DNA from: a bacterium
Lineage (GTDB): Bacteria; Zhuqueibacterota; QNDG01; JAFGCO01
Assembly (NCBI GenBank): GCA_016932575.1
Contig: JAFGCO010000030.1
Coordinates: forward strand, 1 to 46,173
Length of the DNA stretch: 46,173 nt
Direction: 5' to 3'
In this document: one piece after another, positions 23,771 to 45,077 of the stretch
How positions within the stretch are numbered: the first letter of the stretch is position 1
Layout: each line of letters begins with the position of its first letter
The notes under the pieces: model-generated
Databases searched by the model: none
Seen by the model: only the letters and a program-made list of their open reading frames with translations
Told to the model about the DNA's origin: nothing
Translations under genes and position numbers: made by a program

Positions 23771-26257
23771 TCAACGCGGATCCACGGTAATGAATGTACA
23801 GGTTTCGCCGGCCCGGGTGGGCAGATCGACCATATAAGTCTGTTGAAGCTGAAATGGATCAAGTCTGGCCTTTTCGGAAATCAGCGGCTTTTTGATTTCG
23901 GGAATCCGGTAAAACGGATTTGGATTTTTCATTACGGCCGGCTTCAAAAGAAGGATTCCTTCCGCCAGGACCGGGCAGCGGACACGGATCCGGCAGTTGC
24001 CGCCTAAATGGGATTTTATGATCAGTTCAGACAACTGACCGTCTTTCCATGCAAGATTCCGGATTTCAAACCCTCCCCTGGCCCTCAGTCCTGAGATGCT
24101 TCCTGTTTTCCAGACATCGGGAAGTGCAGGCAGGATATCGATGCAGCCGTCATCGCTTTGCACGAGCATTTCCGCGATGCCTGACGTGAATCCGAAATTG
24201 CCGTCGATTTGAAACGGGGGATGCGCGTCAAACAGATTGGGATAGGTGCCGCCTTCCTCGGAGAATCCATCCCCGTCAGGATTCATTCGCTGCGCAGGTT
24301 TGATCTGTTCCCGGATCAGTTTGTATGCGTGGTTGCCGTCGAGAAAATGGGCCCAGAGGTTGATTTTCCAGTTCATCGACCAGCCCGTCGAGGGATCCCC
24401 GCGAAAAATGAGAGAGGTCCGGGCGGCACCGGACAATTCGGGGGTCCGGTAAGGTGATATTTGACTGCCCGGAAAAACTCCGTACAGATGAGAGACATGC
24501 CTGTGGTGATCTTCGGGATTGTCCCAGTCTTCAATCCACTCCTGAAGCTGACTATATTGTCCGATCTGCATCGGAGGCAGTCTTTTCAGTGCATGATTGA
24601 TTTGCCTGATAAATTTCTTATCTGTATTCAGAATTTCCGCTGCTCTGGCTGTTCTGGTAAAAAGATCGAACAGCAGCTGATTATCCATGGTCGTGCCGGC
24701 GGAAATGGAAATTCTGCGATGAGACGAAGGCGCATTCTCCGGAGAAACAGACGGGCAGACCACCAGCCAGTGATGCTGTGGTTCTTCCACTAAAAAGGAG
24801 AGATAAAACAGAGCCGCGCTTTTTAAAACCGGATATACAGACTGAAGATATTCTGTATCACCGCTGAATTGATATTTTTCCCACAGATGCTGACAAAGCC
24901 AGGCACCCCCCATGGGCCACATCCCCCAGAAGGCTCCGTCGATGGGTCCGCATATACGCCAGATATCCGTATTGTGATGAAGCACCCATCCGTCTGCGCC
25001 ATACATATCCCTGGCTGTCTGTCTGCCTGTCTGCGAAAGCTCAAGGACCATCTGAATCAGCGGCTCGTTCATTTCACTTAAGTTTGTGCTCTCAGAGGGC
25101 CAATAATTCATTTCTGTGTTGATATTGATCGTATATTTACTGTCCCAGGGCGGGTACAGCTGATTGTTCCAGATTCCCTGAAGATTGGCGGGCTGACCGC
25201 CGGGCCGTGATGAAGAAATCAGCAGGTACCGGCCAAACTGAAAATATAATGCTGCCAATTGCGGATCATTGCCTGCGGCAAATTGTTCAATACGGATGTC
25301 GGTGGGATTTTTTACAGAATCCGTGACTCCCAGATCAATACGGATTCTTTTAAAATAGCGCTGATAGTCGGTCATATGATCTTTCAGCGCCTGATTATAA
25401 TTTTTTTTCATCGCATTCTGAAGGATCGTATCTGCCTTTTCACCGGCATTGGCGCTGATATCATGATAGTTATTAAAGCTCGATGCAATTGAAATATAGA
25501 GCAGCGCTGCATCCGCATTGCTGACAGCAATACTGTGATTGTCTGCCGATACCGATCCCCCTTCCGCGGCGATTTTGACCCGCACCTGAAACTCGACGGC
25601 CCCTTTGATGGAATCGCGGTCGCTTGTGACTCCCGCCATGATTAATTGATCATTGCCGGCAGAAAAAATACTGACCGGAGCGGGATGATTCAGCGAAGCT
25701 GTAAAATTAATTTTGCCGGACTGGCTGGCTGTCAATCTAACAACAATCACCTGATCAGGGAATGATGCAAAAACTTCACGATTATATGTCACGCCGTCGA
25801 CATCATAACGGGCAGCGGTCACAGCGGTTTCGATATTCAGTTCACGGTAATAATTGGTATAATTTTCATGTTCCGGAACAAGAAGAGACAAATGACCGGC
25901 CGTTTGATAAGGCATGCCCTGTGAATTCCGGCTGATAAATTTCTTGTTTGCCAGATCCTGCGCTTCCCCGTACCTGCCGTCAAAAATCAATTGCCGGACT
26001 TTCGGCAAAGCCTCTCTTGCGTCCGGGTTGTCATTACGGTGCGGCTGACCGGCCCAGATCGTATTTTCATTGAGCTGAATTTTTTCTTCTGAAGGATTTC
26101 CGAAAACCATGGCACCCAGGCGGCCGTTGCCGACAGGCAGTGCTTCAACCCATTGTCCGGCAGGCTCTTGATACCATAATTTCAGCAATGTACTGCTCTG
26201 CGCCCGCAAATTCAGGCCGGACATCACACATAAGGTGATGAGCAGCATATTTTTCAT
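23771..26257 (-). CDS. GH95 alpha-L-fucosidase/galactosidase family glycosidase
   Basis: An 828-residue enzyme of glycoside hydrolase family 95, which inverts terminal alpha-1,2-L-fucose or alpha-L-galactose. A signal peptide ([20 protein letters not shown]) is followed by the N-terminal beta domain ([26 protein letters not shown]). Family motifs are [12 protein letters not shown] (with the conserved asparagines), LQEWIEDW with the probable general acid at E573, and FQIDGNFG with D685; these correspond by motif to residues studied in bifidobacterial AfcA. The length is normal. It has no sorting tail and so may be periplasmic. The nearby GDP-mannose 3,5-epimerase also concerns L-galactose-type sugars. 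Confidence 0.92.
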
Positions 26258-29620: not shown

Positions 29621-30766
29621 TCAGATTCGGATTTTTATTTTCTGCGCTTCCGGGATCGGCTCTTCCGAGGCCGCCACAATGTATCCGCCACCGCTCCCGG
29701 AAAAAATGGCACCCGGATATGAAGCATACTTTTTAAGTTCATCAAGTGATTCATCCAGAACAGTCATCGGGAGAATATGCTTCCAGGCCTGTAAACTCAG
29801 CGTGAGCGATCGGCCCAGGCCCGCGACGTCTTTGTTCCGGATACTCTGCCAGCACAGTTCTCCGGACTCAGCCAGTTTTTGAACCCATTTGACTGTCAGG
29901 TGTTTGATCCGGATTGGATCGTACTGCATCGGTCTGGAATGAATGGGAATCAAATGAATGACCTTTTCAAGCCATTCGGCCGTGTCAGGATCTGTTAAAG
30001 AATCAATCCGACTCGGCCAGTAATCCCCTTCATAAAATAACCGGTTGATGCCCGGCAGCATCAAACCGAGATGGTCCTGGGAACCTGAAACATACGGCGC
30101 ACCGGGCGGATTTTCCGCTCCGAAAAGCAGTCTGGCATTACGGACCGGATCTCCCTTTGGTATCCTGTCTCCCCAAAGTTCCCGGGCCACCTTCCTTGAG
30201 CTGGTCCCCAACCCCGATCTCTCATGAAAATCAATGGTCGGCTTGATCTGAACCACGATAACCGATCCGGGATGCCATTCGGATACCCAGGGCTGATCCA
30301 ACCATCCTCCGGCGAGACAGATGCGGTATGGCAGCCGCAGGTCTTTTTTTATTTCGGAACTTGCCTGGTCGGTTAAACCGGGTTCCGGGATGCGGTCCAG
30401 TACAATGTATTCCACACCATTTTCGCTGCAGAGCCTTTCTTTTTCTTCGGTATGACCATCGGAATTGACGATGAAAACCTCCGGTCGTAAACGAATCAAA
30501 TCGGGTTTGTAATCGAGAATACCGCTTCCGGAACTCAGGAATGCCTGATGGACATATCGGACAGCATTCACCATATAGAGACGCTCTTCCTGAGAAAAGG
30601 TTGGCGATTTGCCTTTCAGATTTCTGATATTCTGATCGGTACCGACCGATACATACAATTGACCATATGTGGAGGCTGTTTTAAAAAATGCGATATGTCC
30701 CGCATGAAGCAAATCAAAGCATCCGCTGACGAGAACTCTCTTTTTTTTCGATGTCAATTTTCTCAT
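29621..30766 (-). CDS. Nucleotidyltransferase-GHMP sugar kinase fusion
   Basis: A 381-residue fusion. Residues 1-~135 are a cytidylyltransferase-type nucleotidyltransferase, with GCFDLLHAGH (15-24; HxGH signature at 21-24). From ~145 the protein resembles GHMP-family sugar kinases: YRICLAGGWLD, RSGLGTSSRKVA (183-194; ATP-binding loop) and a late FSGSGGGYI glycine motif. Together they could phosphorylate a sugar at C1 and then activate it as a nucleotide sugar, as in the heptose HddA/HddC or FKP logic; the sugar is unknown. ATG 30766 overlaps the epimerase stop as ATGA, fixing the start and showing translational coupling. Confidence 0.82.
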   Translation of the reverse strand: MRKLTSKKKRVLVSGCFDLLHAGHIAFFKTASTYGQLYVSVGTDQNIRNLKGKSPTFSQEERLYMVNAVRYVHQAFLSSGSGILDYKPDLIRLRPEVFIVNSDGHTEEKERLCSENGVEYIVLDRIPEPGLTDQASSEIKKDLRLPYRICLAGGWLDQPWVSEWHPGSVIVVQIKPTIDFHERSGLGTSSRKVARELWGDRIPKGDPVRNARLLFGAENPPGAPYVSGSQDHLGLMLPGINRLFYEGDYWPSRIDSLTDPDTAEWLEKVIHLIPIHSRPMQYDPIRIKHLTVKWVQKLAESGELCWQSIRNKDVAGLGRSLTLSLQAWKHILPMTVLDESLDELKKYASYPGAIFSGSGGGYIVAASEEPIPEAQKIKIRI

Positions 30767-31740
30767 TCTGCCTGCTTTTCTGTCATCTGTGAGTAAATCC
30801 AGTCGTAGGTTTTTCTCATCCCGTTTTTCAAAGGAATGGAAGGCTCCCAATTTAAATATTTTTTAATCAGGGTATTATCACTGTTTCGGCCGCGAACGCC
30901 TTTGGGTGCATCGAGATCGTATCTGCGCTGCAGTTTGATTCCGGCGATCTCTTCAACGATATCCGTGAGCGCATTGATGGATACCATTTCGCTTGAACCC
31001 AGATTAATCGGTTCTTTTATCTGGCTGTACATGATATTGAAGATGCCTTGTATACAATCGTCGATATACATGAAACTGCGGGTCTGCAATCCGTCTCCCC
31101 AGATTACAATTTCATATTTGCCGGACAGTCCGGCTTCGATGACCTTGCGGCAAATGGCCGCGGGTGCTTTTTCCCGTCCCCCGTAATACGTACCGAAGGG
31201 GCCGTAAACGTTGTGGAACCGGGCGATACGTGTGGTCAATCCGAAATCCTCCCGGAAATGGCGGCACATCCGCTCGCTGAACAGTTTCTCCCATCCATAA
31301 CCGTCTTCGGCCAGGGCGGGATACGCATCCGATTCCTTCAGGCCGGGATTTTCGGGATCCGTCTGTTTCTCGGCATTGTACACACATGCAGAGGACGAAT
31401 AAAAATACCGGTCCACACCTTTATCTCTCGCAGCCATGAGAAGATGGGTATTGATCAGCACACTGATCATGCATGCCGCCTTGTGAGTTTCGATAAATCC
31501 CATCCCGCCCATATCCGCGGCAAGATTGTAAACTTCATTACATCCGTCAACTGATTTGATGCAATTTTCTTTTTCTCGAAGATCGAGAACCCAATTCTCC
31601 GTATCTGGAAATACCTGGTACCATTCGTTCAGCGGTTTCATATCCACTGCCCGGATGAGGTGATTTTTTCGTTTCCTCAAACTAGAGACCAGATGCCCTC
31701 CAATGAATCCGCCCGCTCCAGCAACGATGACTTTATTCAT
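30763..31740 (-). CDS. GDP-mannose 3,5-epimerase-like SDR enzyme
   Basis: A 325-residue extended short-chain dehydrogenase. The NAD site is GAGGFIG (8-14). SSSACVY places C119 at the active-site cysteine of plant GDP-mannose 3,5-epimerase, with Y148/K152 (YGWEK) and K191 (GGREKAPAA) at its other catalytic positions. The stretches NLAADMGGMGFIE, RFHNVYGPFGT, WGDGLQTRSFMYID and VRGRNSDN are typical of that enzyme. It would convert GDP-D-mannose to GDP-L-galactose (or the gulose epimer). The downstream kinase-nucleotidyltransferase overlaps by 4 bases, so both probably make one activated sugar for a surface glycan. GGAGAAAGG upstream supports ATG 31740. Confidence 0.9.
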   Translation of the reverse strand: MNKVIVAGAGGFIGGHLVSSLRKRKNHLIRAVDMKPLNEWYQVFPDTENWVLDLREKENCIKSVDGCNEVYNLAADMGGMGFIETHKAACMISVLINTHLLMAARDKGVDRYFYSSSACVYNAEKQTDPENPGLKESDAYPALAEDGYGWEKLFSERMCRHFREDFGLTTRIARFHNVYGPFGTYYGGREKAPAAICRKVIEAGLSGKYEIVIWGDGLQTRSFMYIDDCIQGIFNIMYSQIKEPINLGSSEMVSINALTDIVEEIAGIKLQRRYDLDAPKGVRGRNSDNTLIKKYLNWEPSIPLKNGMRKTYDWIYSQMTEKQAE

Positions 31741-32142: not shown

Positions 32143-33888
32143 TTAGTCTCCCAGCCAGGCAGAAAGATTTTCCGAAGGAATCAGGCTCCTGTCAATGCCA
32201 GGCCCCTGCCACGCAACGGATACATTGTCGCCTCCACCGCCTTCCTTGTGAAGCACTTCGATATAATAGCATTTTCCCGCTTCCAGTTCAATATCAGCAG
32301 AATGTTGAGAGGAATATTCTTCATAAGACCGGCTTCCGGTCCAGTTGTCCACCCTGGCGATCACTGCTTTTGATTCCGGATTCTCATTGATGCTGAAATA
32401 AAGCTGGGACGCGTCATCACTGGCAATCCAGAATGAATATGTACCGCTGACATCCGGACATACAAATCCCCTCAGACGCGAGCTATAATTATCGCCGAAA
32501 TTCTGCGCTCCCTCCATTTGAGTGATATACTCCCTGCCGCTCGGGAAATCCGGAAATCTGGGATCGGAAGTGAGAGCGTTGATCGATGATCCGGTGATAT
32601 CTTTCCACCATTCCCGAAGAACGAATCGATTGTAGGATTGGACAGCCTTGATCAGAACTGTCCTGGTAAATCCATTGGCTGTGTCATTGACAATCAGCAG
32701 TGTATTGCCTTCGGTTCCTGCAAAAAGGACTGCCTCAGGAAAACCCTCCGTGACCGGTGTGACAGTCATGATTCCCGGATCCTCGGAGGACCACTCATAC
32801 ACCGGAGAGACGTCTCCGCCCTGGGATAACGCCATCACTGTTCGGGGCATGTTTACGCCGATAATCAGGGTATCGACTCCTGCCGGTTCGGCCGGTGTCC
32901 AATTGACAGTCATTCCGGTTTCCGAATCCTCGAACTGGTTTGTATTAAACGAGTTATTCATCGTGCAGCCTGGCCCATTATACGCATTGGCTGAAATGGA
33001 CATTTCAACAATCTGTGTTTCCGTTCCTCGCAGTGAAGACTGATAAGAGATCCAATAAAAACTGTCCGCAAATTTAGTGATGGATGCCTGGGTTTGTGTG
33101 AAGGCTTCTGAAAGCTGGTTTGCCTCTGTAACAATGCAATATCGGCGATTTCCGGTCTGGTTCAGGAAATCCCGATCCAGATCTCTGCCAAAACCAATAA
33201 TGTAGACATTGGTAAATTGCGAGGTATAAATGACCTCGTCTTTGTCCTTTTCGTTTTTTGTATCATTCCCGGCAGTAAAAACGACCAAATTCCCCTGTTG
33301 AACGGTTCCCAGGTTGTAAATTTCACTGTACAGATTGAATCCTTGCAGTACAGCTCCGTACAAATTTCTCTCCGCCGAACCCGCTGTCATCCCGTTAATA
33401 GCATTGATCAACTGGCCTGAATCCTGTGTAAAATCGTGTACCCTACTCAATGTGCTCGAAAAGGTATACACTGCAATTGACTGCATTGGATCAATATCGT
33501 TTACGAATGCCCTGGCGGCTTCTTTTAAGTCGTCCAGGATGGTTCCCGTACTGACATCCAACAGCAGGACCGTGTTCAAATGGTAATCGAACATATTCCG
33601 CTTTCTGACCAATACGGCTGCTTTTTTCTGATCGATGGCTGTTCCATTTTCCCTGATGATAAATCGGTTGTCAGTTAAAAAATCCACTGCCGTTCTGGAA
33701 GTGTCGATCACATTGCAGAACAGGTGCACCTCATGCGGGGGGGAGGTTATCACGCCGTGCGGCAGGATGACGTATGTGCCCACATTGGGGATGGGATCCC
33801 GTTCTTCGGGACCCACATTGTTGTCATTATCGCACCGAATAAAGCAAAGTATCGCGATAACCAGTATAAAAAAAACGGGTTTCTTCAT
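32143..33888 (-). CDS. Exported vWA-domain protein with C-terminal PA14 domain
   Basis: A 581-residue protein. The start at ATG 33888 has CGGAGG upstream; a hydrophobic stretch then ends in FIRC-DNDNN, a loose lipobox that suggests a lipoprotein. The von Willebrand A domain (~85-260) has a variant metal site DVSTG instead of DxSxS, followed by FTAGND. The C-terminal ~140 residues form a PA14 domain (FPSGREYITQMEGAQNF ... GTYSFWIASDDASQLYF ... YYIEVLHKEG), usually carbohydrate-binding. It is the last gene of the receptor operon, 41 bases after the PorV-like gene, suggesting a surface-exposed ligand-binding role there. Confidence 0.8.
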   Translation of the reverse strand: MKKPVFFILVIAILCFIRCDNDNNVGPEERDPIPNVGTYVILPHGVITSPPHEVHLFCNVIDTSRTAVDFLTDNRFIIRENGTAIDQKKAAVLVRKRNMFDYHLNTVLLLDVSTGTILDDLKEAARAFVNDIDPMQSIAVYTFSSTLSRVHDFTQDSGQLINAINGMTAGSAERNLYGAVLQGFNLYSEIYNLGTVQQGNLVVFTAGNDTKNEKDKDEVIYTSQFTNVYIIGFGRDLDRDFLNQTGNRRYCIVTEANQLSEAFTQTQASITKFADSFYWISYQSSLRGTETQIVEMSISANAYNGPGCTMNNSFNTNQFEDSETGMTVNWTPAEPAGVDTLIIGVNMPRTVMALSQGGDVSPVYEWSSEDPGIMTVTPVTEGFPEAVLFAGTEGNTLLIVNDTANGFTRTVLIKAVQSYNRFVLREWWKDITGSSINALTSDPRFPDFPSGREYITQMEGAQNFGDNYSSRLRGFVCPDVSGTYSFWIASDDASQLYFSINENPESKAVIARVDNWTGSRSYEEYSSQHSADIELEAGKCYYIEVLHKEGGGGDNVSVAWQGPGIDRSLIPSENLSAWLGD

Positions 33889-33929
33889 TTCTTGCCTCCG
33901 ATCTAACGTCAAACGCATGATATCTGTTT

Positions 33930-34988
33930 TTAAAACGTCATGCCAATGGTGAACATGGAATAATTGCCCAGGATATCCATCGTTTTATAGGCGTAATTCA
34001 ATTTCAATTCTCTGTTGTTCATCAAGGCCCAATGGATGCCTCCGCCGTAGGTTATTCCATATTGCGAGCGGTTCATAAACAAACCATGATAGCCGGCTCT
34101 CAGGAAGAATTTGGCCATACCTGGCAAAATCAGCCCGTATTCTCCACCCATATTGATCGATTCGCTGTTGTTGTTGGGATGAAGCGCGTCTACGGCGAGA
34201 CACAATTGATGATTGGCGGTTTTTAACGGAATTACCGATATACCAACCCTGAAGATCAGGGGCAGTTCCCAGGACTGGAGACGAAATTGACCCTCGACAT
34301 CTTTGAAATTGCCGTTTTCATCAAGAGAAATATCAATGGGCTGCAGCAGATCGATCCCGTCGTACTTCATCCGGGTGCCGTAGTTGGAAATGCTCATGCC
34401 GATGGTAAGGCCGTTTTCCCGTTTTCCGTCTGGTGAAAAGAAATCGGTATTGATTAAAAGCCCCAAATCCACGGCTGCCGCATTCGCCCTCATATGCCAG
34501 ATGCTGGAAGTCACATATTTAAATGAGGCTCCAAATCCAAACCATTGAGCAAGTTTTCGCGCGTACGAAAGGCTCGCTGCAATATCCATCGCTGAATAGG
34601 ATTCTCCTGTTCCCTCCTGCATTTCCATTGTCGTTACAGGGATTCTTCCATAATTCAAGCCTGTGAAAGAGAAAGCAAACGTGCCATAATCAGGCAGAAC
34701 CACAGCCACACCTACATGCGTGAAATGAATATCGGCAATCCAGGGTTGATAGGTGAACTGGACTTCATGCAGAGTCATATAAGAAAGTCCCGCTGGATTC
34801 CAATACACGGAAGAAAGATCCCGCACGACACTGACATAAGCCTCGCCCATGGCACACCCGTGGCTTTCGGCACCAATTTCAAGAAAATTGGCGGTTGTTG
34901 TGCCCACGCGATAAGGTTTGGTTTGTGCCAGAACCATGGTGCACAACAATCCCATTGTAAATAATACAGCAAGTCGTTTTGTATTCAT
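33930..34988 (-). CDS. PorV/PorQ-family outer-membrane beta-barrel protein
   Basis: A 352-residue protein. ATG 34988 is preceded by AGGAG and followed by a signal peptide (MNTKRLAVLFTMGLLC..., cleaved after VLAQ). The motif TTTANFLEIGAESHGCAMGEAYVSVVRDLSSVYWNPAGLS is the typical N-terminus of the PorV/PorQ (UPF0164) family. The remainder is alternating strands ending in a terminal aromatic (TIGMTF), as in outer-membrane barrels. PorV partners T9SS cargo in Bacteroidota. Here the gene directly follows the 1191-residue protein that carries a sorting tail, so the two may work together. Confidence 0.85.
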   Translation of the reverse strand: MNTKRLAVLFTMGLLCTMVLAQTKPYRVGTTTANFLEIGAESHGCAMGEAYVSVVRDLSSVYWNPAGLSYMTLHEVQFTYQPWIADIHFTHVGVAVVLPDYGTFAFSFTGLNYGRIPVTTMEMQEGTGESYSAMDIAASLSYARKLAQWFGFGASFKYVTSSIWHMRANAAAVDLGLLINTDFFSPDGKRENGLTIGMSISNYGTRMKYDGIDLLQPIDISLDENGNFKDVEGQFRLQSWELPLIFRVGISVIPLKTANHQLCLAVDALHPNNNSESINMGGEYGLILPGMAKFFLRAGYHGLFMNRSQYGITYGGGIHWALMNNRELKLNYAYKTMDILGNYSMFTIGMTF

Positions 34989-35034
34989 ATCGCATCTCCT
35001 GTGATGGGAATGAATGGGCATTTCAAAGGTTGTA

Positions 35035-38000
35035 TTATTTGATAACCGCAAATTTGCCCACTTTTTCATCCCCGGTTTCATTGGATTTCACGTGAAAAAT
35101 GTACATGCCGGCTGCGATTTCAAGCCCCTCGCGGGACAACAAATCCCAGTGGACTGTCCCGTTGGATGATTCTTCGTTGGCCACGTCGATCTTGTCGACC
35201 AGCACACCCGACGGGGTAAAAATCCGGATCGTGCAGTTGGCCGGGATATGCGTAAAAAGAAGCTGGCGCCTCTGGTTCAAATACTGGTTGGCAACTGCAG
35301 TCTCCATCAAATTTGTTGAGATATACGGATTGGGCACGACCTTGATGGAATCCATCATGGTCTTGATTCTCGATTTGTCCAACAGGATATCATCGAGGAC
35401 AGTAAAGGTCAGGGAATCATCTTCCGACAACGGTCTGTGAAAGGAAATTCTATATACATCACCGATCGCCGTAGGATTGCTGTTGCTTTCCGTCTGTTTG
35501 AAATCGAAAGCGAAGATCGTACCTCCCCACCAGAAACTGGTTTTCTCCTGAGTGGTATACCCCACAAGGAATTTATCCTTATTCCAGTCAAGTGAATCAT
35601 TTTCATTGGTATCATACAGAACTAAATCCAGTTTTTCATAATTGCCCAAACTATCCGTGATCATTTTATTTATGACATAAAACGGATACTTCATGCCCAG
35701 TACACGCAAATCGCTTACTACTCTGGTACCATCCACATCATCGATGCCGGTTCCTTTATTGGTTATGGCCTGGTATTCCTTGCCGGGATCGAATACGATT
35801 TCGTACTGATAGGGAAAGTACAGAGCCGCAGGTCCCAATTCGACATTGATTGGTGCCTGTCCCTGAATCCAGCCGGTGTTTTCCACATCCAATTTGACAG
35901 TGTCAGAAGGAATCGAGATCAGGCATTTGAGTCCATCGAAGATATCGGTAGTAATATCCCTGTTGGCTGGAAATTCCCAGGCTGCTTTATCGGTATTGTA
36001 TTGTAAATTATAATCTGTAAAACCGCTTTCGGCATTCTCAATATAAACACGCTCAGCGGTTTGTGTAATATCATAAACCTCAATGCCAGATGTCACCAGT
36101 TGTCCGTCCCTTAACGATCGTCTTGATTCCATTCGTTGATAAAAAGCGATCGGATTGCTTTGAAAAGTCAATTGATAAGTATGATCTCCCTGAACCGCAT
36201 CCGGATCGATAATCAAGGGTATGACCTGACCGTCTGTCAATCGCTCCGATGACCGGCCGGTATCGATTTCAATCTCTGGCGGTACATAACCCGCCGCTCT
36301 CTGTCTGGGCGTTACGATTTGTATATTTTGTCCGGTATGGACGATGTTTTCTGATTCGTCCAGTTCGATATCCACCATGTTTTCGGCCGGTGCAATATTC
36401 ATGTCCTTGATACCATAATCATACGCCACCAAAGCATAATAATAGGTTCTTCCGTTCTGTACATCAGTGTCGACAAAATAATGCCGGATCCCCGTATCGT
36501 CACCGAGATACACAAGATGACCATCTTTTTCACCGCCGATTGTGCTGTACCCCATAATCGAATCTATCTTGTCGCACTGGAATTCCGGTGCCCGGAACTC
36601 CCTGTCTCCTTTCCCGTTAGTAATAATGACTGGATCGGACATGAATTTGTCGGTTGATTTGTACAGTTTGTATCCTTCAAAATCATTTATATTCTGCAGC
36701 AGGGGTTCACGGGTTTTGGTATCGGCAACATTATCCCAGGTAAGGATCACTTTGCCATCTCCCGGATAAGCCCGCAGACTGGGCATGAGAGGGGGCCCGG
36801 CAAACTGATAGTCTCGCTCATAGATGGTCTGGGCTACCTCCTTGACACGGAACAAATTTGACGCCCGATGGTTCGAGGCGTTAAGCGCGGCGAGGTTCTC
36901 ATACGCGCACATGAATGCCATGGAAACCCTTTCAGTACGGCCCTTGTAGAAGGGAAACGGCGAAGAGGCAAAAATCATATACATCGATCCATAGGATCCC
37001 GCAATGAGAAAATCGGACAGCGAATCGGAATTCATCACACTCCATACATTTTTATCTTCATTGAGTGTCAACCGGAAAATGTTCTGCCACTGTGCCCAGT
37101 CGAATAAAAGAAAGCTGGTCAGTCCGACCATGTCTGATTCACCGATATCAAGTGGTCCAAAATTGGGCTCGCCTTTGGTAGCGACGAAATCCGGTTTGTG
37201 GTTGCACTCAGATCCGTCAGGATCCGGACCATAGTAATTTAAGTCCCCCGGTGCAACCCCATCGACACCCACATCATTACCTACAAATGCACCCGATTCA
37301 AGAATCCAGTTACCCTCCTCGTCCAGGTCGGCATATCTTCCGTCATTATCCGGGTCAATACCATCCTGCCAATCCTGATCTTCATCACCTTCCCAGTGGG
37401 ATCGGGGATCACGATTGAAAAAATTCCGGAACTTTGTCTCGTCGATGGGTATTCCTTCTAATCCCATATTGGGACCGACCCATTGACCTGCATCGTTGTC
37501 TCTTTTTTCATCGATAATACCATCGTCGTCATTATCAATCTGGTCATAAGCCATGCCCGGACTTTCCAGATAGGCATATCCCATCGTCCCGGGCATGCGT
37601 CCGCCTTCGCCCTGTCCCTGATATTCCCAGACATAGGAAAGATCAAGAACTTTATCGCGAAAAGCCACCTCGTTTTCTCCGCTGGCGTCACCTCCGATGC
37701 TGTTATCCACATAATATCCGAAACCGCTGATCGGGAGATTATAATCGGAGATATTGGATATGTTGTATTCCCAGAAAACAATATCCTGGGCCTCTTTGTT
37801 GGCCCACTGGTATCCCCGAACCTCAATACGGATACCGAGACCACCCCACGGCAAACCTTTCTGGATACTGACATTGGGATCGAAATCTCCAATCACCTTT
37901 CCAAGCCTGGGAAGGTACCGGGGCCCGTCAGTAATGAGTTTTTCTTCCGGATCATTTCGCTGGATTATGTATTCCATGTCCTGCGCATCATTCGCCACAA

Positions 38001-38610
38001 AATACGATTCCAGATGCGCCTTTGTAATGCCCCGTCCGTATCGTCCGTTCCACTCATCCGGCCAAACTTTGGTAAAACCGGTCAATGGCCAACCTTCTGG
38101 CGGCCAGGAATTCGGCTTGTTGCTCATGGCCGCATAATCTTGTGCCTCATTGCAATAACCCGGTACCGGGTAGAGCCCCCATTCCACGGTTCCGTCATAA
38201 TTCATATCAGGATTGGCATCAGAGTAAGAATGGGACTGCACAAAGTATAATGTATCGATGGCATCGGATTCATTTAATCGCGGATCGTTGAAATCGTCGA
38301 TGGGAATGGAATCATGGTAAACGTAGACCTGACTCCCCACCAACACCGAAGCGACGTCAATCATCCGCTGACCTGTGTAATCATTCGGCCATCGGCTTGT
38401 GCCGATTGTAGGATAATCTGCGATCTGGGTGTTATTTTCAAAATAAAGCAGCAGCCGGTTTATGTTCATATAACCTGCACGAATGGCTGAGATGTCGCCT
38501 GCAGGATCTTCGGGACCATTGTATATTTGGCCCTGAGGCAGCAGATTGGAAACACAGAGTACCATCCAAAGGCACGCTGCAAGGAATTGAGTCCGTTTTT
38601 TCATGCTCAT
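35035..38610 (-). CDS. Large surface protein with calcium-loop repeats and sorting tail
   Basis: A 1191-residue exported protein of unknown function. AGGAG precedes ATG 38610, and a signal peptide follows (CLWMVLCVSNLLPQG). Acidic loops such as DNDDDGIIDE and DPDNDGRYADLDE resemble calcium-binding thrombospondin-3/dockerin-type loops. A fibronectin-like region (GDGKVILTWDNVADTKTREPL) lies in the middle. The end is a FlgD-like sorting domain (VVPNPYIS ... IRIFTPSGVLVDKID ... GMYIFHVKSNETGDEKVGKFAVIK). It lies between the TonB receptor (64 bases upstream) and the PorV-like gene (46 bases downstream), where Bacteroidota would have SusD. It has no SusD-like helices, so I infer a non-SusD surface partner. 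Confidence 0.75.
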   Translation of the reverse strand: MSMKKRTQFLAACLWMVLCVSNLLPQGQIYNGPEDPAGDISAIRAGYMNINRLLLYFENNTQIADYPTIGTSRWPNDYTGQRMIDVASVLVGSQVYVYHDSIPIDDFNDPRLNESDAIDTLYFVQSHSYSDANPDMNYDGTVEWGLYPVPGYCNEAQDYAAMSNKPNSWPPEGWPLTGFTKVWPDEWNGRYGRGITKAHLESYFVANDAQDMEYIIQRNDPEEKLITDGPRYLPRLGKVIGDFDPNVSIQKGLPWGGLGIRIEVRGYQWANKEAQDIVFWEYNISNISDYNLPISGFGYYVDNSIGGDASGENEVAFRDKVLDLSYVWEYQGQGEGGRMPGTMGYAYLESPGMAYDQIDNDDDGIIDEKRDNDAGQWVGPNMGLEGIPIDETKFRNFFNRDPRSHWEGDEDQDWQDGIDPDNDGRYADLDEEGNWILESGAFVGNDVGVDGVAPGDLNYYGPDPDGSECNHKPDFVATKGEPNFGPLDIGESDMVGLTSFLLFDWAQWQNIFRLTLNEDKNVWSVMNSDSLSDFLIAGSYGSMYMIFASSPFPFYKGRTERVSMAFMCAYENLAALNASNHRASNLFRVKEVAQTIYERDYQFAGPPLMPSLRAYPGDGKVILTWDNVADTKTREPLLQNINDFEGYKLYKSTDKFMSDPVIITNGKGDREFRAPEFQCDKIDSIMGYSTIGGEKDGHLVYLGDDTGIRHYFVDTDVQNGRTYYYALVAYDYGIKDMNIAPAENMVDIELDESENIVHTGQNIQIVTPRQRAAGYVPPEIEIDTGRSSERLTDGQVIPLIIDPDAVQGDHTYQLTFQSNPIAFYQRMESRRSLRDGQLVTSGIEVYDITQTAERVYIENAESGFTDYNLQYNTDKAAWEFPANRDITTDIFDGLKCLISIPSDTVKLDVENTGWIQGQAPINVELGPAALYFPYQYEIVFDPGKEYQAITNKGTGIDDVDGTRVVSDLRVLGMKYPFYVINKMITDSLGNYEKLDLVLYDTNENDSLDWNKDKFLVGYTTQEKTSFWWGGTIFAFDFKQTESNSNPTAIGDVYRISFHRPLSEDDSLTFTVLDDILLDKSRIKTMMDSIKVVPNPYISTNLMETAVANQYLNQRRQLLFTHIPANCTIRIFTPSGVLVDKIDVANEESSNGTVHWDLLSREGLEIAAGMYIFHVKSNETGDEKVGKFAVIK

Positions 38611-38674: not shown

Positions 38675-41521
38675 CTAAAATGTATATCCCATGGTCAACT
38701 TGACCGATCTGGGATACGAATACATGGTCGGATTTTTAACCTGATCATAGTAATCGTTATAATCGCTGCGGAACTTGCTCAAATCGGATTCTGTCACTAT
38801 TCTTGTGTATGGCTGGCCTGTATCACCGTACACCCAGACGGTGTTGAGATTATCAAACAGGTTGTAGACATTGAGCGTGAATTTGACCGAATGCCCGCCG
38901 AACAAGGAGACCAGGTATGACGCCGTCAGATCGAAGCTTACTGACGTCGGTTTGGGCGAATTGTTCTCATAGAGATTGATCCGGTAAAGCGGACTGTATC
39001 CCGGAGGCTCATACGTGTATGGAGTTCCGGAATTGATATATCCGGTCATCGCCGCATTCCAGCTTTTTGCCGTATAGGCCACAGTGGCATTCGCCGTATA
39101 TCGCTGGTCCCATTCCATGGGGATCAGCCGGGTGATCGGATCCATACTGTCACCCGCACGATCATATGTATCCCTTGGATTGTTCGCATTGCCGCGCGTG
39201 AAAGAGTAGGTAAAATTCACAAACGAGGAAAAGCCGAGATAAACGTAATCCCATGTCAGTTCAATACCCCGGGCATTGCCGTAATCCTTGTTGGTGAACT
39301 GGCCGTATTTAACCTGATTGTAGGTAGTTATGATTTTCGTGCTGAGGAGGTTGTAGATGTCTTTATAATAAAGCGAAACCTCCAGTCCCATGCCGGTCAT
39401 GATCTGCTGCCAGAGACCGATTTCATACTGAATGGTTTTTTCCGCTTTGAGCTGGGAGTTGCCCATGGTGGTCTGAAAATTGAAGGGGGGCACGCGAAAG
39501 ATGTTGTTTTCATACAAAGCAAACATCTGAGGCATCTGGAAAAAATGTCCGTAGCTGAGCCGGAGCACGGCCTGATCGCTCAGCTTGTAGGATACACCCA
39601 GGCGCGGGCTGAGCTGGGTCTGCGGATCAGCTTTGGGGTAAACAGACATCATCTCCATATCGATAACTTCCTGACCATTTTCATCGATAACCACATGTCC
39701 GCTGTCATCTCTGACATAAAACGTTTGTTGATTGGCCGGATTTCGCCAGTTGGATGCATAATGGTAATCGGGATTAAAATAATCGTACCGCAAACCCAGT
39801 TTAATGACCATATCATCGAATTCCATCTTGTCCTGGATGTAGACCGACATTTCATACGGCTTCACCTTGTAAATATTGATCGTATTCTCCGTGACAGGGA
39901 CGATTTCGGGTACATAAAACGGAAAATCGATTTTTCCCGTCTCAGGATCGACAACCATCTCGTCTTCAATAGGCAGCCCGTCAAACTGGTTACGTACATT
40001 GACGCGCCAACGGTCGACAACATGAGATGTATACAGGAATCCTGTTTTGAAGCCATGAACCTTACTGGCCTGCCAGTAAAGATCAAACTTGATATCCCGC
40101 CTCTCGAATGTGTCTTTTCTCTTTCCGGGATCCACCGTGCCGCCTGTGTAAAAGCCTGTTTCAAGGCTCCCTCTGTAATTCGGACTGAGATATCGAAGAT
40201 CCAGCGGATCCTCATACAGGTAGGATTGTTCCACCCGATCGGTATAGGACAATTTCAGATCATAAAACAGAGATTTTGAAATCATGTGGTTGATATCAAA
40301 AGAGCCGAAATGAATGGTGCTGAAGTCCCATGGCAATCCATCCGGGTTGTATTTATACTGAAAGTCGCCCAGACCATTATTGAATCGTTTGCTCTTATTA
40401 CCGTTAAATGTGTAAAGCAGGTTCAGCTTGAAATTGCTGGTGATTTTGAATGTCAGCTTTCCCATGGCATTGTGATAATAATCCTGCTGAAGGGCCACAT
40501 ATTTGTTATCACCGGTGTGTTCGATATGCCAGGTTGTAGAATCGATTGCCGGGTAGACGCTGTAATCCCACGGATTGAACCGGCGGATACCGTTGATTGG
40601 CCCCCGATTGTTCTGGTACCGATAGTTAATAAATACGGTCAATCTGTCTTTGAAAATAGGTCCGTCAAGCTGAACCTTGTAATCCTGGCTCAGATTACGC
40701 TCAAGGTAATCGGATGTTCCAAGCCCCGTGAAAACTTTCTTGTTGCTGCGGGAAATTGAATATTTGTGTTTAGGATGATGAGTAGTGAAATAATTGCTGT
40801 ACCCGCTAGACAGAAATCCGTGCCATTCGTTGCCTCCCTCTTTCGTGACCGCGTTCACCATACCGCTCATGGCACGACCATATTCCGCATCAAACGTGCC
40901 TTTGATCACTTCGAGATCCTGGACCACTTCTTTTTCGACATACACGCTCTGCCTGGAATACTCACTGAATGAGTTGACAACCGACAATCCGTCGACCAGG
41001 TAGGAGACCTCGCTGCTACGGCCGCCACGAAAATGCCCCTGCACAATACCGGCCTGCATGTTTACCACTTGATTGATATTTTCGACCGGCAGTTTTGCAA
41101 TCTGATCAGCGGACACATTTCGGACCGAGCTGGTTTGATCCTTCTTTAACGAAACCGCACTCGCGGTTACTACCACGGTTTCCCCCTTGAGAACTGTCTT
41201 ATCCAGCTCGAATATCAGATGGGTCGTCGAATTGACGCTCACACGGACATTTTCCATTTTAATCGGTGCATAGCCGATCATACTGACCTGGATATCATAG
41301 ATGCCCGGTGCAATGTTAATGATATAAAAATGTCCGTCAGCATCGGCTGCAGTGCCGGATGAAGTTTGAAGCAGCATCACATTTGCGCCTATGAGAGGCT
41401 CACCCGTTTCTTTGTCCATAATATTTCCTGCGATTTTTCCTGTTGTCTGTGCAAAAGACAATGTAAATCCTAGAATTACTGCCAGGAATATAACGGTCAT
41501 TGCCCCATTCTTTTTATGCAT
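38675..41521 (-). CDS. TonB-dependent receptor with CarboxypepD_reg N-domain
   Basis: A 948-residue outer-membrane transporter. A signal peptide (FLAVILGFTLSFAQ) is followed by a carboxypeptidase-regulatory-like domain (GKIAGNIMDKETGEPLIGAN ... IIN-IAPGIYDIQVSMIGY, ~26-105). Next are a plug domain (SADQIAKLPVENINQVVNMQAGI ... VSYLVDGLSV ... EYGRAMSGMVNAVTKEG) and a 22-strand barrel ending in VKLTMGYTF with a terminal phenylalanine. AAGGGAGG gives an ideal ribosome site. It is first in an operon with the 1191-residue protein, the PorV-like protein and the vWA/PA14 protein. Two LacI-type operators flank its promoter, so it is probably repressed until a sugar ligand is present. Confidence 0.92.
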   Translation of the reverse strand: MHKKNGAMTVIFLAVILGFTLSFAQTTGKIAGNIMDKETGEPLIGANVMLLQTSSGTAADADGHFYIINIAPGIYDIQVSMIGYAPIKMENVRVSVNSTTHLIFELDKTVLKGETVVVTASAVSLKKDQTSSVRNVSADQIAKLPVENINQVVNMQAGIVQGHFRGGRSSEVSYLVDGLSVVNSFSEYSRQSVYVEKEVVQDLEVIKGTFDAEYGRAMSGMVNAVTKEGGNEWHGFLSSGYSNYFTTHHPKHKYSISRSNKKVFTGLGTSDYLERNLSQDYKVQLDGPIFKDRLTVFINYRYQNNRGPINGIRRFNPWDYSVYPAIDSTTWHIEHTGDNKYVALQQDYYHNAMGKLTFKITSNFKLNLLYTFNGNKSKRFNNGLGDFQYKYNPDGLPWDFSTIHFGSFDINHMISKSLFYDLKLSYTDRVEQSYLYEDPLDLRYLSPNYRGSLETGFYTGGTVDPGKRKDTFERRDIKFDLYWQASKVHGFKTGFLYTSHVVDRWRVNVRNQFDGLPIEDEMVVDPETGKIDFPFYVPEIVPVTENTINIYKVKPYEMSVYIQDKMEFDDMVIKLGLRYDYFNPDYHYASNWRNPANQQTFYVRDDSGHVVIDENGQEVIDMEMMSVYPKADPQTQLSPRLGVSYKLSDQAVLRLSYGHFFQMPQMFALYENNIFRVPPFNFQTTMGNSQLKAEKTIQYEIGLWQQIMTGMGLEVSLYYKDIYNLLSTKIITTYNQVKYGQFTNKDYGNARGIELTWDYVYLGFSSFVNFTYSFTRGNANNPRDTYDRAGDSMDPITRLIPMEWDQRYTANATVAYTAKSWNAAMTGYINSGTPYTYEPPGYSPLYRINLYENNSPKPTSVSFDLTASYLVSLFGGHSVKFTLNVYNLFDNLNTVWVYGDTGQPYTRIVTESDLSKFRSDYNDYYDQVKNPTMYSYPRSVKLTMGYTF

Positions 41522-41580
41522 AAGACCTCCCTTCTTAGTTGAAAAGATTGCAATATTTTTTGAATTTTATTTTATGGCAA

Positions 41581-41594
41581 CTTACTCGAGTAAG
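41581..41594. promoter_or_regulatory. LacI-type operator O1 (downstream of receptor promoter)
   Basis: CTTACTCGAGTAAG is a perfect 14-bp palindrome with the central CG step typical of LacI-family sites. It lies 60 bases before the receptor ATG and downstream of its -10 box. Related sites are at 41701 and 42772. Confidence 0.8.
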
Positions 41595-41663
41595 AATAAG
41601 GATAAAAATTATGGAATGACACAGCAGTCGACACCCAATTCTTTTTACCATAAAACCTCCACT

Positions 41664-41692
41664 ATTATATCTTTAAAATATTAATAAATGAA
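41664..41692 (-). promoter_or_regulatory. Candidate promoter of the TonB receptor operon
   Basis: Read on the minus strand, TATAAT (41669-41664) lies 17 bases after a weak -35 (TTCATT, 41692-41687). The start would be near 41657, giving a ~135-base leader. The two operators lie on each side, one just upstream of the -35 and one in the leader. Weak -35 boxes are common at regulated promoters. Confidence 0.5.
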
Positions 41693-41700
41693 TTTTTATA

Positions 41701-41714
41701 CTTACTCGAGTCAG
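41701..41714. promoter_or_regulatory. LacI-type operator O2 (upstream of receptor promoter)
   Basis: CTTACTCGAGTCAG differs from the perfect palindrome at one base. It is centred 120 bp from O1, an arrangement that would allow repression by looping. Confidence 0.75.
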
Positions 41715-41739
41715 CTTAACTGTATAAATATTAATCACA

Positions 41740-42768
41740 TTAATTTACCAAAGCCCCCTCAGATATTCGAAGCGACTCTCCAATTTCAATTTCCGCGGGA
41801 ATGAACACTTTTGTATTGGATAGTTCATGATCATCAATATGGCGAATTAATAATTCCATGGCTTTTTTACCCAGATCGTATGGATCGACATTAATGATTG
41901 TCAGTGACGGAGATATTATTTTTGCAAACTCATGATGACCAAAAGCCACAACCCCGACAGTATCCGGAAATTGAATGCCGAGTTCCCTCATCGCATCGTA
42001 TACGCCCAGGGCAATCTGGTCATTGGCCGCATAAACAACCTCAGGAATTTCATTCGTTTTGAAAAGTTCATTGAATCCGCGATAACCATCCATTCTTGTA
42101 AATCCGCCCTCAATGATCCACTCTTTCCTTACCGGAATTTTATTCGCTTTCAACGCGTCCACATATCCCAGACAACGCTTTCTGCCGATATCGACAAGCG
42201 AATCCCCTGCGATATGCCAGACGCGTTTATATCCGGCTTTCACGACAAAATCAATGAGTTTCCGGGCCGCTTCCCTGTCGTCTATGCCCACGGAGCTGCA
42301 GTCCAGATTTTCAATCGTGCGGTCAAAAAAGACCAGGGGGATTTCACTTTGATTGACCTTCCTGAAAATTTGCGTGCTTCGTGTTTCTTTTGAAATAGCC
42401 AGCAAAATCCCGTCCACCCGCATGGATAACAATGTTAAAATATTCTCCTTTTCAGTATCCGCTTTCTCTCTGGAGACAGTCAATATAATTTTATAGCCCG
42501 AACTTTGTGCAACATCCATGATTCCGTCAATCACAAACGCAAAAAAGGAATACGAAATATCCGGTACAATAACACCGATTGTAAAGGTCTTTTTCGACTG
42601 CAGATTACTTGCATGGTAATGGGGAATATAATTGTATTTTTCTGCCAGACGCCTGACACGCTTTTTCATTTCCTCGGAGATATCATCAGCGTCCTTCAGT
42701 GCTTTTGAAACCGTAGCCCGGCTGACATTCAATTGTTTCGCAATCGCGGATTGATTGATGATCGGCAT
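41740..42768 (-). CDS. LacI-family transcriptional regulator
   Basis: A 342-residue repressor. The N-terminal helix-turn-helix (SAIAKQLNVSRATVSKALKD, ~7-26) and hinge (NYIPHYHASNLQSKKT) are followed by a periplasmic-binding-protein-like sensor (TIGVIVPDISYSFFAFVIDG ... GILLAISKE ... PLVFFDRTI ... VYAANDQIALGVYDAM ... VGVVAFGHHEFA). The ligand is likely a sugar. It lies directly upstream of the TonB receptor in the same direction. The palindrome CTTACTCGGGTAAG sits between its own promoter and ATG, and two close matches flank the receptor promoter, so I infer autoregulation and control of the receptor operon. Confidence 0.92.
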   Translation of the reverse strand: MPIINQSAIAKQLNVSRATVSKALKDADDISEEMKKRVRRLAEKYNYIPHYHASNLQSKKTFTIGVIVPDISYSFFAFVIDGIMDVAQSSGYKIILTVSREKADTEKENILTLLSMRVDGILLAISKETRSTQIFRKVNQSEIPLVFFDRTIENLDCSSVGIDDREAARKLIDFVVKAGYKRVWHIAGDSLVDIGRKRCLGYVDALKANKIPVRKEWIIEGGFTRMDGYRGFNELFKTNEIPEVVYAANDQIALGVYDAMRELGIQFPDTVGVVAFGHHEFAKIISPSLTIINVDPYDLGKKAMELLIRHIDDHELSNTKVFIPAEIEIGESLRISEGALVN

Positions 42769-42771
42769 TGA

Positions 42772-42785
42772 CTTACTCGGGTAAG
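42772..42785. promoter_or_regulatory. LacI-type operator O3 (autoregulatory)
   Basis: CTTACTCGGGTAAG, within a 16-base match ACTTACTCGGGTAAGT, starts 3 bases upstream of the lacI ATG and lies just downstream of its expected transcription start. Binding would block early elongation and cover the ribosome site. Confidence 0.75.
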
Positions 42786-42797
42786 TTTATTGTAATT

Positions 42798-42826
42798 ATT
42801 ATACAAAGTAATCAATAAAAAGTCAA
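42798..42826 (-). promoter_or_regulatory. Promoter of the lacI-family gene
   Basis: On the minus strand, TTGACT (42826-42821), a 17-base spacer and TATAAT (42803-42798) form a near-consensus promoter. Transcription should start near 42791, about 23 bases before the ATG, with operator O3 in between. Confidence 0.8.
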
Positions 42827-43259
42827 GTGATTTCTGGAGGATAATAATAAATGCCGGCAATCATGCAAAATGATTACTGAATAACAACACAAAAAACAAA
42901 CGGGATTCGAATAACAATCCGATACAAATGGTGGCACCACAATGATTTCGAACACATCATCCGTGATGACAATGATCTGAACCAGATTATATTTTTCTTG
43001 ACAAATAATAATAAATTTAATATAATTAGACCATTATTACATTTTTCTTAAATATAAATCCCGTAAATAAAAACCGGATATTATCGCATGGGGATAATCC
43101 TGGACCGGTCATTTATGCTTGAATTATTGATAATTTCTGTTCAATACGGATTTGATTTATAGCCAGGAAACACTATATACTTATAAATTCCTTCAAAAAT
43201 TTATTGAATATCAAAATTTTTACTGGAAATTCAACAAACGAACAATATTGGGGGGTAAA
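42827..43259. other. Intergenic region and long leader
   Basis: Between the divergent lacI and lipoprotein genes. Apart from the promoters and the leader hairpin described, it is AT-rich with no coding sequence I accept. An open frame from 43152 joins the lipoprotein gene but precedes its ribosome site and signal peptide. Confidence 0.5.
42998..43026 (+). promoter_or_regulatory. Consensus sigma-70-type promoter
   Basis: TTGACA (42998-43003), exactly 17 bases, and TATAAT (43021-43026). It faces the lipoprotein gene at 43260, giving a leader of about 225 bases. Within the leader, ATTATC (43080-43085) pairs with GATAAT (43093-43098), extended by ACCGG (43073) and CCGGT (43105-43109), a possible structured element of unknown role. 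Confidence 0.8.
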
Positions 43260-45077
43260 ATGAAAATTAAAAAAGACAGATTTGGCATACTCTTTTTATT
43301 TCTGATCATATCTCTGCCCTTATTCTTAACCTGTGAAAAACAAAGCAACCCTTTAAAGTCAGATGAAACTGATTTAAATGGCAACATAGTCAAAGGCCAT
43401 GTTACCTATGAAGGAGGCACAGATTTTGGGGGCATTACCGTGACTCTTGAAACCATGAACGAACTTGGACAAACTGCCAGTGTGGCATATCAGCTATTGA
43501 AACAGGAAGATAATTCTGACAGAGGTCTGCTGAAATCAGAGCAGGGTTTAGCGAAAGCGCTTCATGATTCGACAAAAAAATACGAAACCATTACACAGCC
43601 TGACGGTTACTTCTGTTTTGAAAACATACCCCCCGGCCAATATTCACTCTCGGTTAAAAAATCGAATCTACATTATGCATATATCGATAATATTCATGTA
43701 TCGGCCGAGGGACCGGTGGTGATTAATCCGGTTTTAACACCGACAGGTTCCATAAAGGGCGTGGTCCGCATGGACGGTATAAACGATTTCAGCGGCACGA
43801 TGGCTTATCTTGGGGGCACTTCATATTTATCATTTACTGACAATAACGGTGTCTTTTTAATTTCAGATGTGCCCCTGGGTGACTATATAATTTCAATAGC
43901 AGCTCCGAATTATCAGGTCATTGAACGTTCTGTTTCATTGACAGAAGCAGGGGTGACAGTGGCTGTCGATACAATTCTTATTCAGAAGTATGGGTGGGTT
44001 TCGGGTAGAGTCGTATCTTATATTACCAAAAAAAGTCTATCGAATGTTACTGTAAACTCATTTTCCGGAGGTTCAACTCTTACTTCTTCAGATGGTCTTT
44101 TCTCATTGATGGTGCCTGCCGGCTCAGTCGGACTAATGTTTGAGAAGTCAGGCTACTCAATAAAAACTGTTTATGTTGATAATATTATCAGTGGTGAAAA
44201 TAGCAATATTCAAAATGATATTGAACTATTTAAAGGTCCGACTACTTCAGGAAGCACATCAGGTGATGAGTATTGGACAAAGGATATGGGAGAGATCATT
44301 ATTACTGATGATGTTCAAATTAGAACAGTTGATGTATTGAATATAAGTAGTGGTGTTATTGTGAAATCAGATATTATTCCTTCACCTGAGTTAATAGTAA
44401 AGGGTGAATTGAGTATTCTCGGTACTGAAAAAGAAAAGGTAATTTTTTATGGCGTTTCAATTAGAATTGATTCTGACATAGAATCTTCAATAGTTCATTG
44501 TAATATCCAGTATTGTAGCGGTACCGGAATCAATATTGGTGATGGTGCAGGTAGCAATTCTGATGCTACAATAGGTTTTTGCAACATTTCAGAAAATTAT
44601 ATAGGTATTTTTATAACTGGCAATTCTGATGGAAGAATTTATAACTCAACTATTGAAAAAAATCTCACCGATGGTATTAGGGCTTATTCAAGTGCTGGAG
44701 CAAATATAGAAAATTGTCTGATCGCTACGAATATTGATCATCAGTTATATTTTGCATCAGGGGCAGATGTTATTTCTTCAAACAATATAATTGTAGGTGA
44801 AACTAAGGGATTTACACCAGATAAGAGTGATCAAGTAGGCTATTATGTTTCTGGTTATGTAAGCCCTATCAATTATAATGTAATTATAACAGTTTTTGAC
44901 GGTGCCAATGTGATAAATTCGACTAACACCATATCAGGTTATTATAAAATTGTTGTGGAAGATGGCACGTATTCAATAAAAGCGGAAGCTTCAGGATATA
45001 ATGCTGTAACAAAGACAATAAATGTAGATGGCGAAAATGTGAAAAATGTCAATTTCATTCTGCAGCCAACCGCTTGA
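43260..45077 (+). CDS. Lipoprotein with CarboxypepD_reg repeats and beta-helix
   Basis: A 605-residue lipoprotein. ATG 43260 follows a GGGGGG site and opens a signal peptide with lipobox LFLTC (C25). Three carboxypeptidase-regulatory-like repeats follow (GHVTYEGGTDFGGITVTLE; GSIKGVVRMDGINDFSG...; GWVSGRVVSYITKKSLSNV...). Then comes a right-handed beta-helix (~355-520: SSIVHCNIQYCSGTGINI, ATIGFCNISENYIGIFI, GRIYNSTIEKNLTDGI) and a final CarboxypepD_reg/PEGA-like domain ending FILQPTA. The architecture suggests surface attachment and polymer binding; no enzyme motif is certain. From about 44000 the DNA is markedly AT-rich. It is transcribed from the consensus promoter at 42998. Confidence 0.8.
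   Translation: MKIKKDRFGILFLFLIISLPLFLTCEKQSNPLKSDETDLNGNIVKGHVTYEGGTDFGGITVTLETMNELGQTASVAYQLLKQEDNSDRGLLKSEQGLAKALHDSTKKYETITQPDGYFCFENIPPGQYSLSVKKSNLHYAYIDNIHVSAEGPVVINPVLTPTGSIKGVVRMDGINDFSGTMAYLGGTSYLSFTDNNGVFLISDVPLGDYIISIAAPNYQVIERSVSLTEAGVTVAVDTILIQKYGWVSGRVVSYITKKSLSNVTVNSFSGGSTLTSSDGLFSLMVPAGSVGLMFEKSGYSIKTVYVDNIISGENSNIQNDIELFKGPTTSGSTSGDEYWTKDMGEIIITDDVQIRTVDVLNISSGVIVKSDIIPSPELIVKGELSILGTEKEKVIFYGVSIRIDSDIESSIVHCNIQYCSGTGINIGDGAGSNSDATIGFCNISENYIGIFITGNSDGRIYNSTIEKNLTDGIRAYSSAGANIENCLIATNIDHQLYFASGADVISSNNIIVGETKGFTPDKSDQVGYYVSGYVSPINYNVIITVFDGANVINSTNTISGYYKIVVEDGTYSIKAEASGYNAVTKTINVDGENVKNVNFILQPTA

Follow-up and report, generated by a model that had tools for sequence, protein, structure and literature searches.

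Why does one short palindrome stand three times around a single regulatory gene, and which genes would it control? Within the 46,173 nucleotides analysed here from a genome of the phylum Zhuqueibacterota (the window), palindromic 14-mers occur at 41581 (CTTACTCGAGTAAG), 41701 (CTTACTCGAGTCAG) and 42772 (CTTACTCGGGTAAG), close to a gene for a LacI-family regulator and to a gene for a TonB-dependent receptor. An earlier note had read them as operators of a local sugar-responsive circuit, in which two sites flanking the receptor promoter would silence it by DNA looping while the third would allow the regulator to repress its own synthesis. To our knowledge, no regulon has been mapped experimentally in this phylum. 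Our analysis indicates that the three palindromes are very probably operators of the adjacent LacI-family protein and define a local circuit on lacI and the receptor operon.

The regulator and its putative operators

The argument begins with the following features.

42798..42826, minus strand: predicted sigma-70-type lacI promoter, TTGACT-17-TATAAT, consensus match 11/12
42771..42786, no strand: O1, putative operator ACTTACTCGGGTAAGT, between the lacI promoter and the lacI ATG; candidate autoregulatory site
41740..42768, minus strand: gene for the LacI-family regulator, 342 aa; PF00356 and Peripla_BP above cut-off; recognition helix VSRATVSKAL (TVSK type)
41700..41715, no strand: O2, putative operator ACTTACTCGAGTCAGC, directly past the lacI stop and upstream of the TonB receptor
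41664..41692, minus strand: predicted receptor promoter, TTCATT-17-TATAAT, with a weak -35; best intergenic candidate, 9.5 bits
41580..41595, no strand: O3, putative operator ACTTACTCGAGTAAGA, with the receptor ATG 60 bp downstream

Judged by its profile matches, the product of 41740-42768 is a member of the LacI/GalR family of transcription factors, scoring 40.8 bits against PF00356 (cut-off 27), 102 against PF00532 (22.2) and 85.5 against PF13377 (26.5). The profile search yielded no named equivalog; the CcpA model TIGR01481, for example, gave 196.8 bits against a cut-off of 442.35. The recognition helix is the same in orthologs, and TVSK occurs in the window protein, in three orthologs and in a paralog of the same genome on C20. 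TVSR is absent from the helix, and because the protein carries TVSK instead it lies outside the published TVSR recognition-code group (Camas et al. 2010, PMC2978694), with which it shares the HTH/hinge binding mode and a CG-centred site but from which it differs in a helix ending in TVSK and an outer half-site AAGT. The lac-type C-terminal tetramerisation domain is also absent from the 342 residues: the alignment with LacI stops at query residue 309 (LacI residue 306 of 360), and the C-terminus matches the end of CcpA, near CcpA residue 330.

The three sequences lie where the earlier note had placed them, and the sites at 41581 and 41701 are, as it had stated, exactly 120 bp apart from centre to centre. 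The site at 42772 likewise falls between the TTGACT-17-TATAAT promoter and the lacI ATG at 42768. The palindrome extends to a 16-bp operator, ACTTAC-N-CG-N-GTAAGT (pattern ACTTACNCGNGTAAGT), which has the even, CG-centred symmetry of LacI/GalR operators; in O3 the 14-bp core is perfect. Such operators, together with local regulons and autoregulation in 72% of cases, are the norm for the family according to Ravcheev et al. (2014, PMC4052901).

A scan of the whole window found no fourth site with three or fewer mismatches. Across the 4.41 Mb of the genome (94.5% complete), these three are the only sites with at most one mismatch; the circuit is confined to a single locus, and the motif, for which the earlier note had proposed such a scan, is not common at random. 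Two further sites at two mismatches, on C1 and C19, both lie within coding ORFs, and a wider regulon was rejected since the genome offers no other sites. The window also holds genes for an SDR protein, a GH9 and a GH95, none with an operator upstream; as the sites adjoin only lacI and the receptor, control of these genes is not part of the supported circuit.

A footprint before lacI in five genomes

A search of 82 genomes from the phylum for exact matches to ACTTACNCGNGTAAGT gave a single copy in each of five genomes. Every copy precedes the start codon of lacI or of its ortholog by 2-4 bp, and one of these lacI copies is degraded. The reversed control pattern gave a single chance match in each of two other genomes of the 82. 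Three genomes from the same order have lacI orthologs, at 72, 63 and 60% identity, and the gene order lacI-receptor-FlgD-tail-PorV is kept in G011, G003 and G008. When the 5' regions of lacI are aligned, only the N positions vary within the operator block, which sits in poorly conserved upstream sequence. This footprint argues strongly for autoregulation of lacI, and the reading of the palindromes as LacI-type operators, as well as the autorepression that the earlier note had predicted, gains accordingly in credibility from the five genomes.

On the receptor side, G003 and G008 each carry one variant site (ACTTACTCGATAAAGT and GCTTAATCGATAAAGT, respectively) in the short gap between lacI and receptor, at the position equivalent to O2. 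No receptor-side site was recognisable in G011, though its lacI-side site is present, and the corresponding intergenic regions of the four relatives examined contained no counterpart of O3. Taken with the phylum-wide footprint, the sites in G003 and G008 make a good case that LacI may control the downstream receptor operon, and so uphold the local circuit first proposed. The fifth genome with the 16-mer has the operator before a degraded lacI, followed by the receptor. At the locus L073 (G058:C214), the degraded lacI consists of an N-terminal ORF of 69 codons with internal loss, the operator before the ATG is intact and the receptor gene lies directly downstream; the degradation could be either real decay or a fault of the draft assembly.

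Predicted repression of regulator and receptor operon

The predicted lacI promoter scores 14.1 bits, and similar elements lie at about the same distance from lacI in G003 and G008. No clear SD was seen before lacI, its place being taken by O1. A dimer bound at 42771-42786, just past the -10 and over the position of the RBS, would repress synthesis of the regulator itself; since O1 lies between promoter and ATG, a dimer there should block initiation or early elongation. On the plus strand, a perfect sigma-70 consensus (TTGACA-17-TATAAT) at 42998-43026 would serve the divergent CarboxypepD_reg/beta-helix gene at 43260, and is more than 200 bp from the nearest operator.

The presumed target operon runs from the receptor through these genes.

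38675..41521, minus strand: TonB-dependent receptor with a CarboxypepD_reg-like N-terminal domain (PF00593, PF07715, PF13715); SD GGGAGG upstream
35035..38610, minus strand: 1191-aa secreted-type protein with a FlgD/PorZ-like C terminus; follows the receptor gene in the presumed operon, synteny conserved
33930..35081, minus strand: PorV/PorQ-family outer-membrane protein (NF033709, 214.8 bits, cut-off 90); synteny conserved
32143..33918, minus strand: VWA and PA14 protein, last gene ahead of a 402-bp gap

The locus is not of the SusC/SusD kind, TIGR04056 giving 64 bits against a cut-off of 368, and no SusD match was present among the neighbour genes scanned. The gap between lacI and receptor measures 218 bp in the window, longer than in G003 and G008, and holds both O2 and O3; comparison of its remaining sequence with 59 genomes gave no convincing relative at the nucleotide level. 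The contention that the sites flank the receptor promoter holds in part: the best candidate does lie between 41581 and 41701, with its TATAAT at 41669-41664, but it is a prediction whose -35 is weak, and a scan for the consensus that required 9 of 12 matches did not pick it up. Repressor dimers on O2 (41700-41715) and O3 (41580-41595) would repress the tandem operon of TonB receptor, FlgD-tail protein and PorV, either by occluding its promoter or as a roadblock, which is the simplest reading because the candidate sits between O2 and O3. A sugar or sugar derivative would be expected to release the repressor.

Also in this region, a leader ORF of 38 codons (41522-41657, minus strand) begins at an ATG preceded by GGAGG and ends immediately ahead of the receptor SD. 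The receptor leader was considered as an RNA element in its own right and rejected, its fold signal being weak, its sequence not conserved in orthologs and no credible Rfam match being found.

Gene context and candidate effector

Further downstream on the same strand, past gaps of several hundred bases, are genes for an epimerase homolog, a fused nucleotidyltransferase, a GH9 and a GH95, none with an operator of its own. The stretch 29621-31740 of the window holds two of these genes, a homolog of the plant-type GDP-mannose 3,5-epimerase (330 bits to the Arabidopsis enzyme) and, after it, a nucleotidyltransferase/GHMP-like fusion whose start is likely the ATG near 30766. The fused protein (409 aa) has a weak GHMP-kinase signal in Pfam at its C terminus, and its AlphaFold model is too poor for use (pLDDT 51), so that the kinase-like half rests on this weak match and on our reading of the sequence. 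The GH95 gene has the following position.

23771-26257: GH95, alpha-L-galactosidase-like; closest solved relative 4UFC

This GH95 scores 883 bits against the alpha-L-galactosidase 4UFC and about 306 against the fucosidase AfcA, and a 14-residue motif is identical to that of 4UFC, including the Thr at the position proposed to discriminate between L-galactose and L-fucose; in 4UFC this Thr was proposed to contact O6 of L-galactose (PMC4491172).

The closest LacI homologs in Bacteroidales and Melioribacter (44-47% identical) adjoin the same epimerase and nucleotidyltransferase genes, a pair that travels with this LacI subfamily there and in G058, hinting at a route of L-galactose salvage. In several of these homolog loci, either the epimerase gene or lacI is preceded by related palindromes of the ACACGTGAAAGT type. 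The window-type motif itself was sought there and rejected, only related variants being present. Before one Bacteroidetes lacI homolog (L043, 2333-2372) there are half-site repeats (ACCCGTGAAAGTACACGCGAAAGTACACGAGAAAGT) at a spacing of about 12 bp, an array of overlapping operators resembling a class spaced by 13 bp in PMC4052901.

The paralog on C20 is 54% identical to the window regulator and similarly arranged, with one variant palindrome before its ATG and another just past its stop, before the next gene. Its locus (L063, G000:C20, 13272-18100) comprises a FucP permease, a zinc alcohol dehydrogenase and a secreted protein; FucP, an L-fucose permease, is likewise present in G058. From the GH95, the epimerase, the homolog loci and FucP, together with the regulator's family, we regard L-galactose or L-fucose as the leading guess for the effector, with about an even chance of being right. 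It is also conceivable, if rather doubtful, that the TVSK-type LacI subfamily of this phylum, Ignavibacteria and Bacteroidales governs an undescribed route for L-galactose (or L-fucose). Here GH95 would free L-galactose, the nucleotidyltransferase/kinase-like fusion would convert it to GDP-L-galactose and the plant-type GDP-mannose 3,5-epimerase, working in reverse, would yield GDP-mannose. At the loci of related LacI homologs, related operators stand immediately upstream of epimerase or lacI genes.

Alternative explanations

That the palindromes are chance repeats without function is barely credible. Taken alone the window scan is a weak test, because three matches at up to three mismatches (chance mean 0.9) were also reached in 7 of 100 shuffles. 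However, of the 90 14-mers in the window that are nearly palindromic, only this family recurs within 1.5 kb, and three or more such copies arose in 2 of 5000 trials when the two stretches of non-coding flank were shuffled. The uniqueness in the genome also speaks against chance, and the same-position footprint in five genomes already contradicts it. It is highly improbable, too, that the sequences act as RNA hairpins or leader elements and not as DNA operators. Palindromes fold inherently, and the RNA of the receptor leader at 41522-41657 folds better than its shuffles (z -3.1), but the sites precede lacI in five genomes where the remaining leader is unconserved, perfect pairing is broken in the orthologous sites ACACGAGT and TCGATAAAGT, Rfam offers no credible match and O2 lies upstream of the predicted receptor promoter. 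Cross-regulation, in which another LacI paralog such as that on C20 would bind the window sites, is improbable to a slightly lesser degree: the C20 helix (VSRVTVSKAL) differs from that of the window protein by one residue and the C20 sites, ACTTTCACGTGTAAGA and ACTTACACGTGAACGT, are related to those of the window, but they differ by at least three bases, each regulator gene is accompanied by a variant of the site particular to it, and window-type sites are found nowhere else in the genome.

A loop in which the repressor would bridge O2 and O3 and so silence the receptor promoter deserves more attention, although we consider it unlikely. Two near-identical strong sites lie on either side of the best promoter candidate, near -50 and +70 of it and 120 bp apart, in a geometry like that of the E. 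coli gal operon, where another dimeric LacI-family regulator, GalR, acts on two operators that enclose a promoter and are separated by about 115 bp. In principle a loop could form here too, since GalR dimers bound at gal OE and OI (-60.5 and +53.5, 113 bp) loop with the aid of HU (PMC4693257). Against this, GalR operators spaced by 103, 113, 123 or 133 bp gave repression, while spacings of 108, 118 and 128 bp did not (PMC4693257), so that 120 bp, between the working 113 and 123 and close to the failing 118, would be unfavourably phased on the helix; moreover, none of the four relatives examined has O3. The loop of the E. coli lac repressor shares the family and the operator symmetry, but the helix by which that protein forms tetramers is missing from the present regulator. 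The looping repression envisaged by the earlier note is therefore disfavoured, and occlusion or a roadblock by separately bound dimers is preferred.

Discussion

The circuit is of an ordinary type. It resembles those in the LacI-family catalogue (PMC4052901) in its even palindrome with central CG, in having sites at the regulator gene and a neighbouring operon, in a regulon of one locus and in its carbohydrate context. It departs from them in that the lacI-side site lies 2-4 bp from the ATG, whereas more than 75% of the known sites are 30-140 bp upstream; nor did the portion of the catalogue consulted contain a counterpart of a TonB receptor/FlgD-tail/PorV operon with the operator ACTTACNCGNGTAAGT.

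What the locus adds is a well-footprinted LacI-family operator in this phylum, outside the TVSR recognition-code group. It also ties an operon of TonB receptor, PorV and FlgD-tail protein to a specific regulator, for which the gene context offers a candidate ligand, L-galactose or L-fucose.
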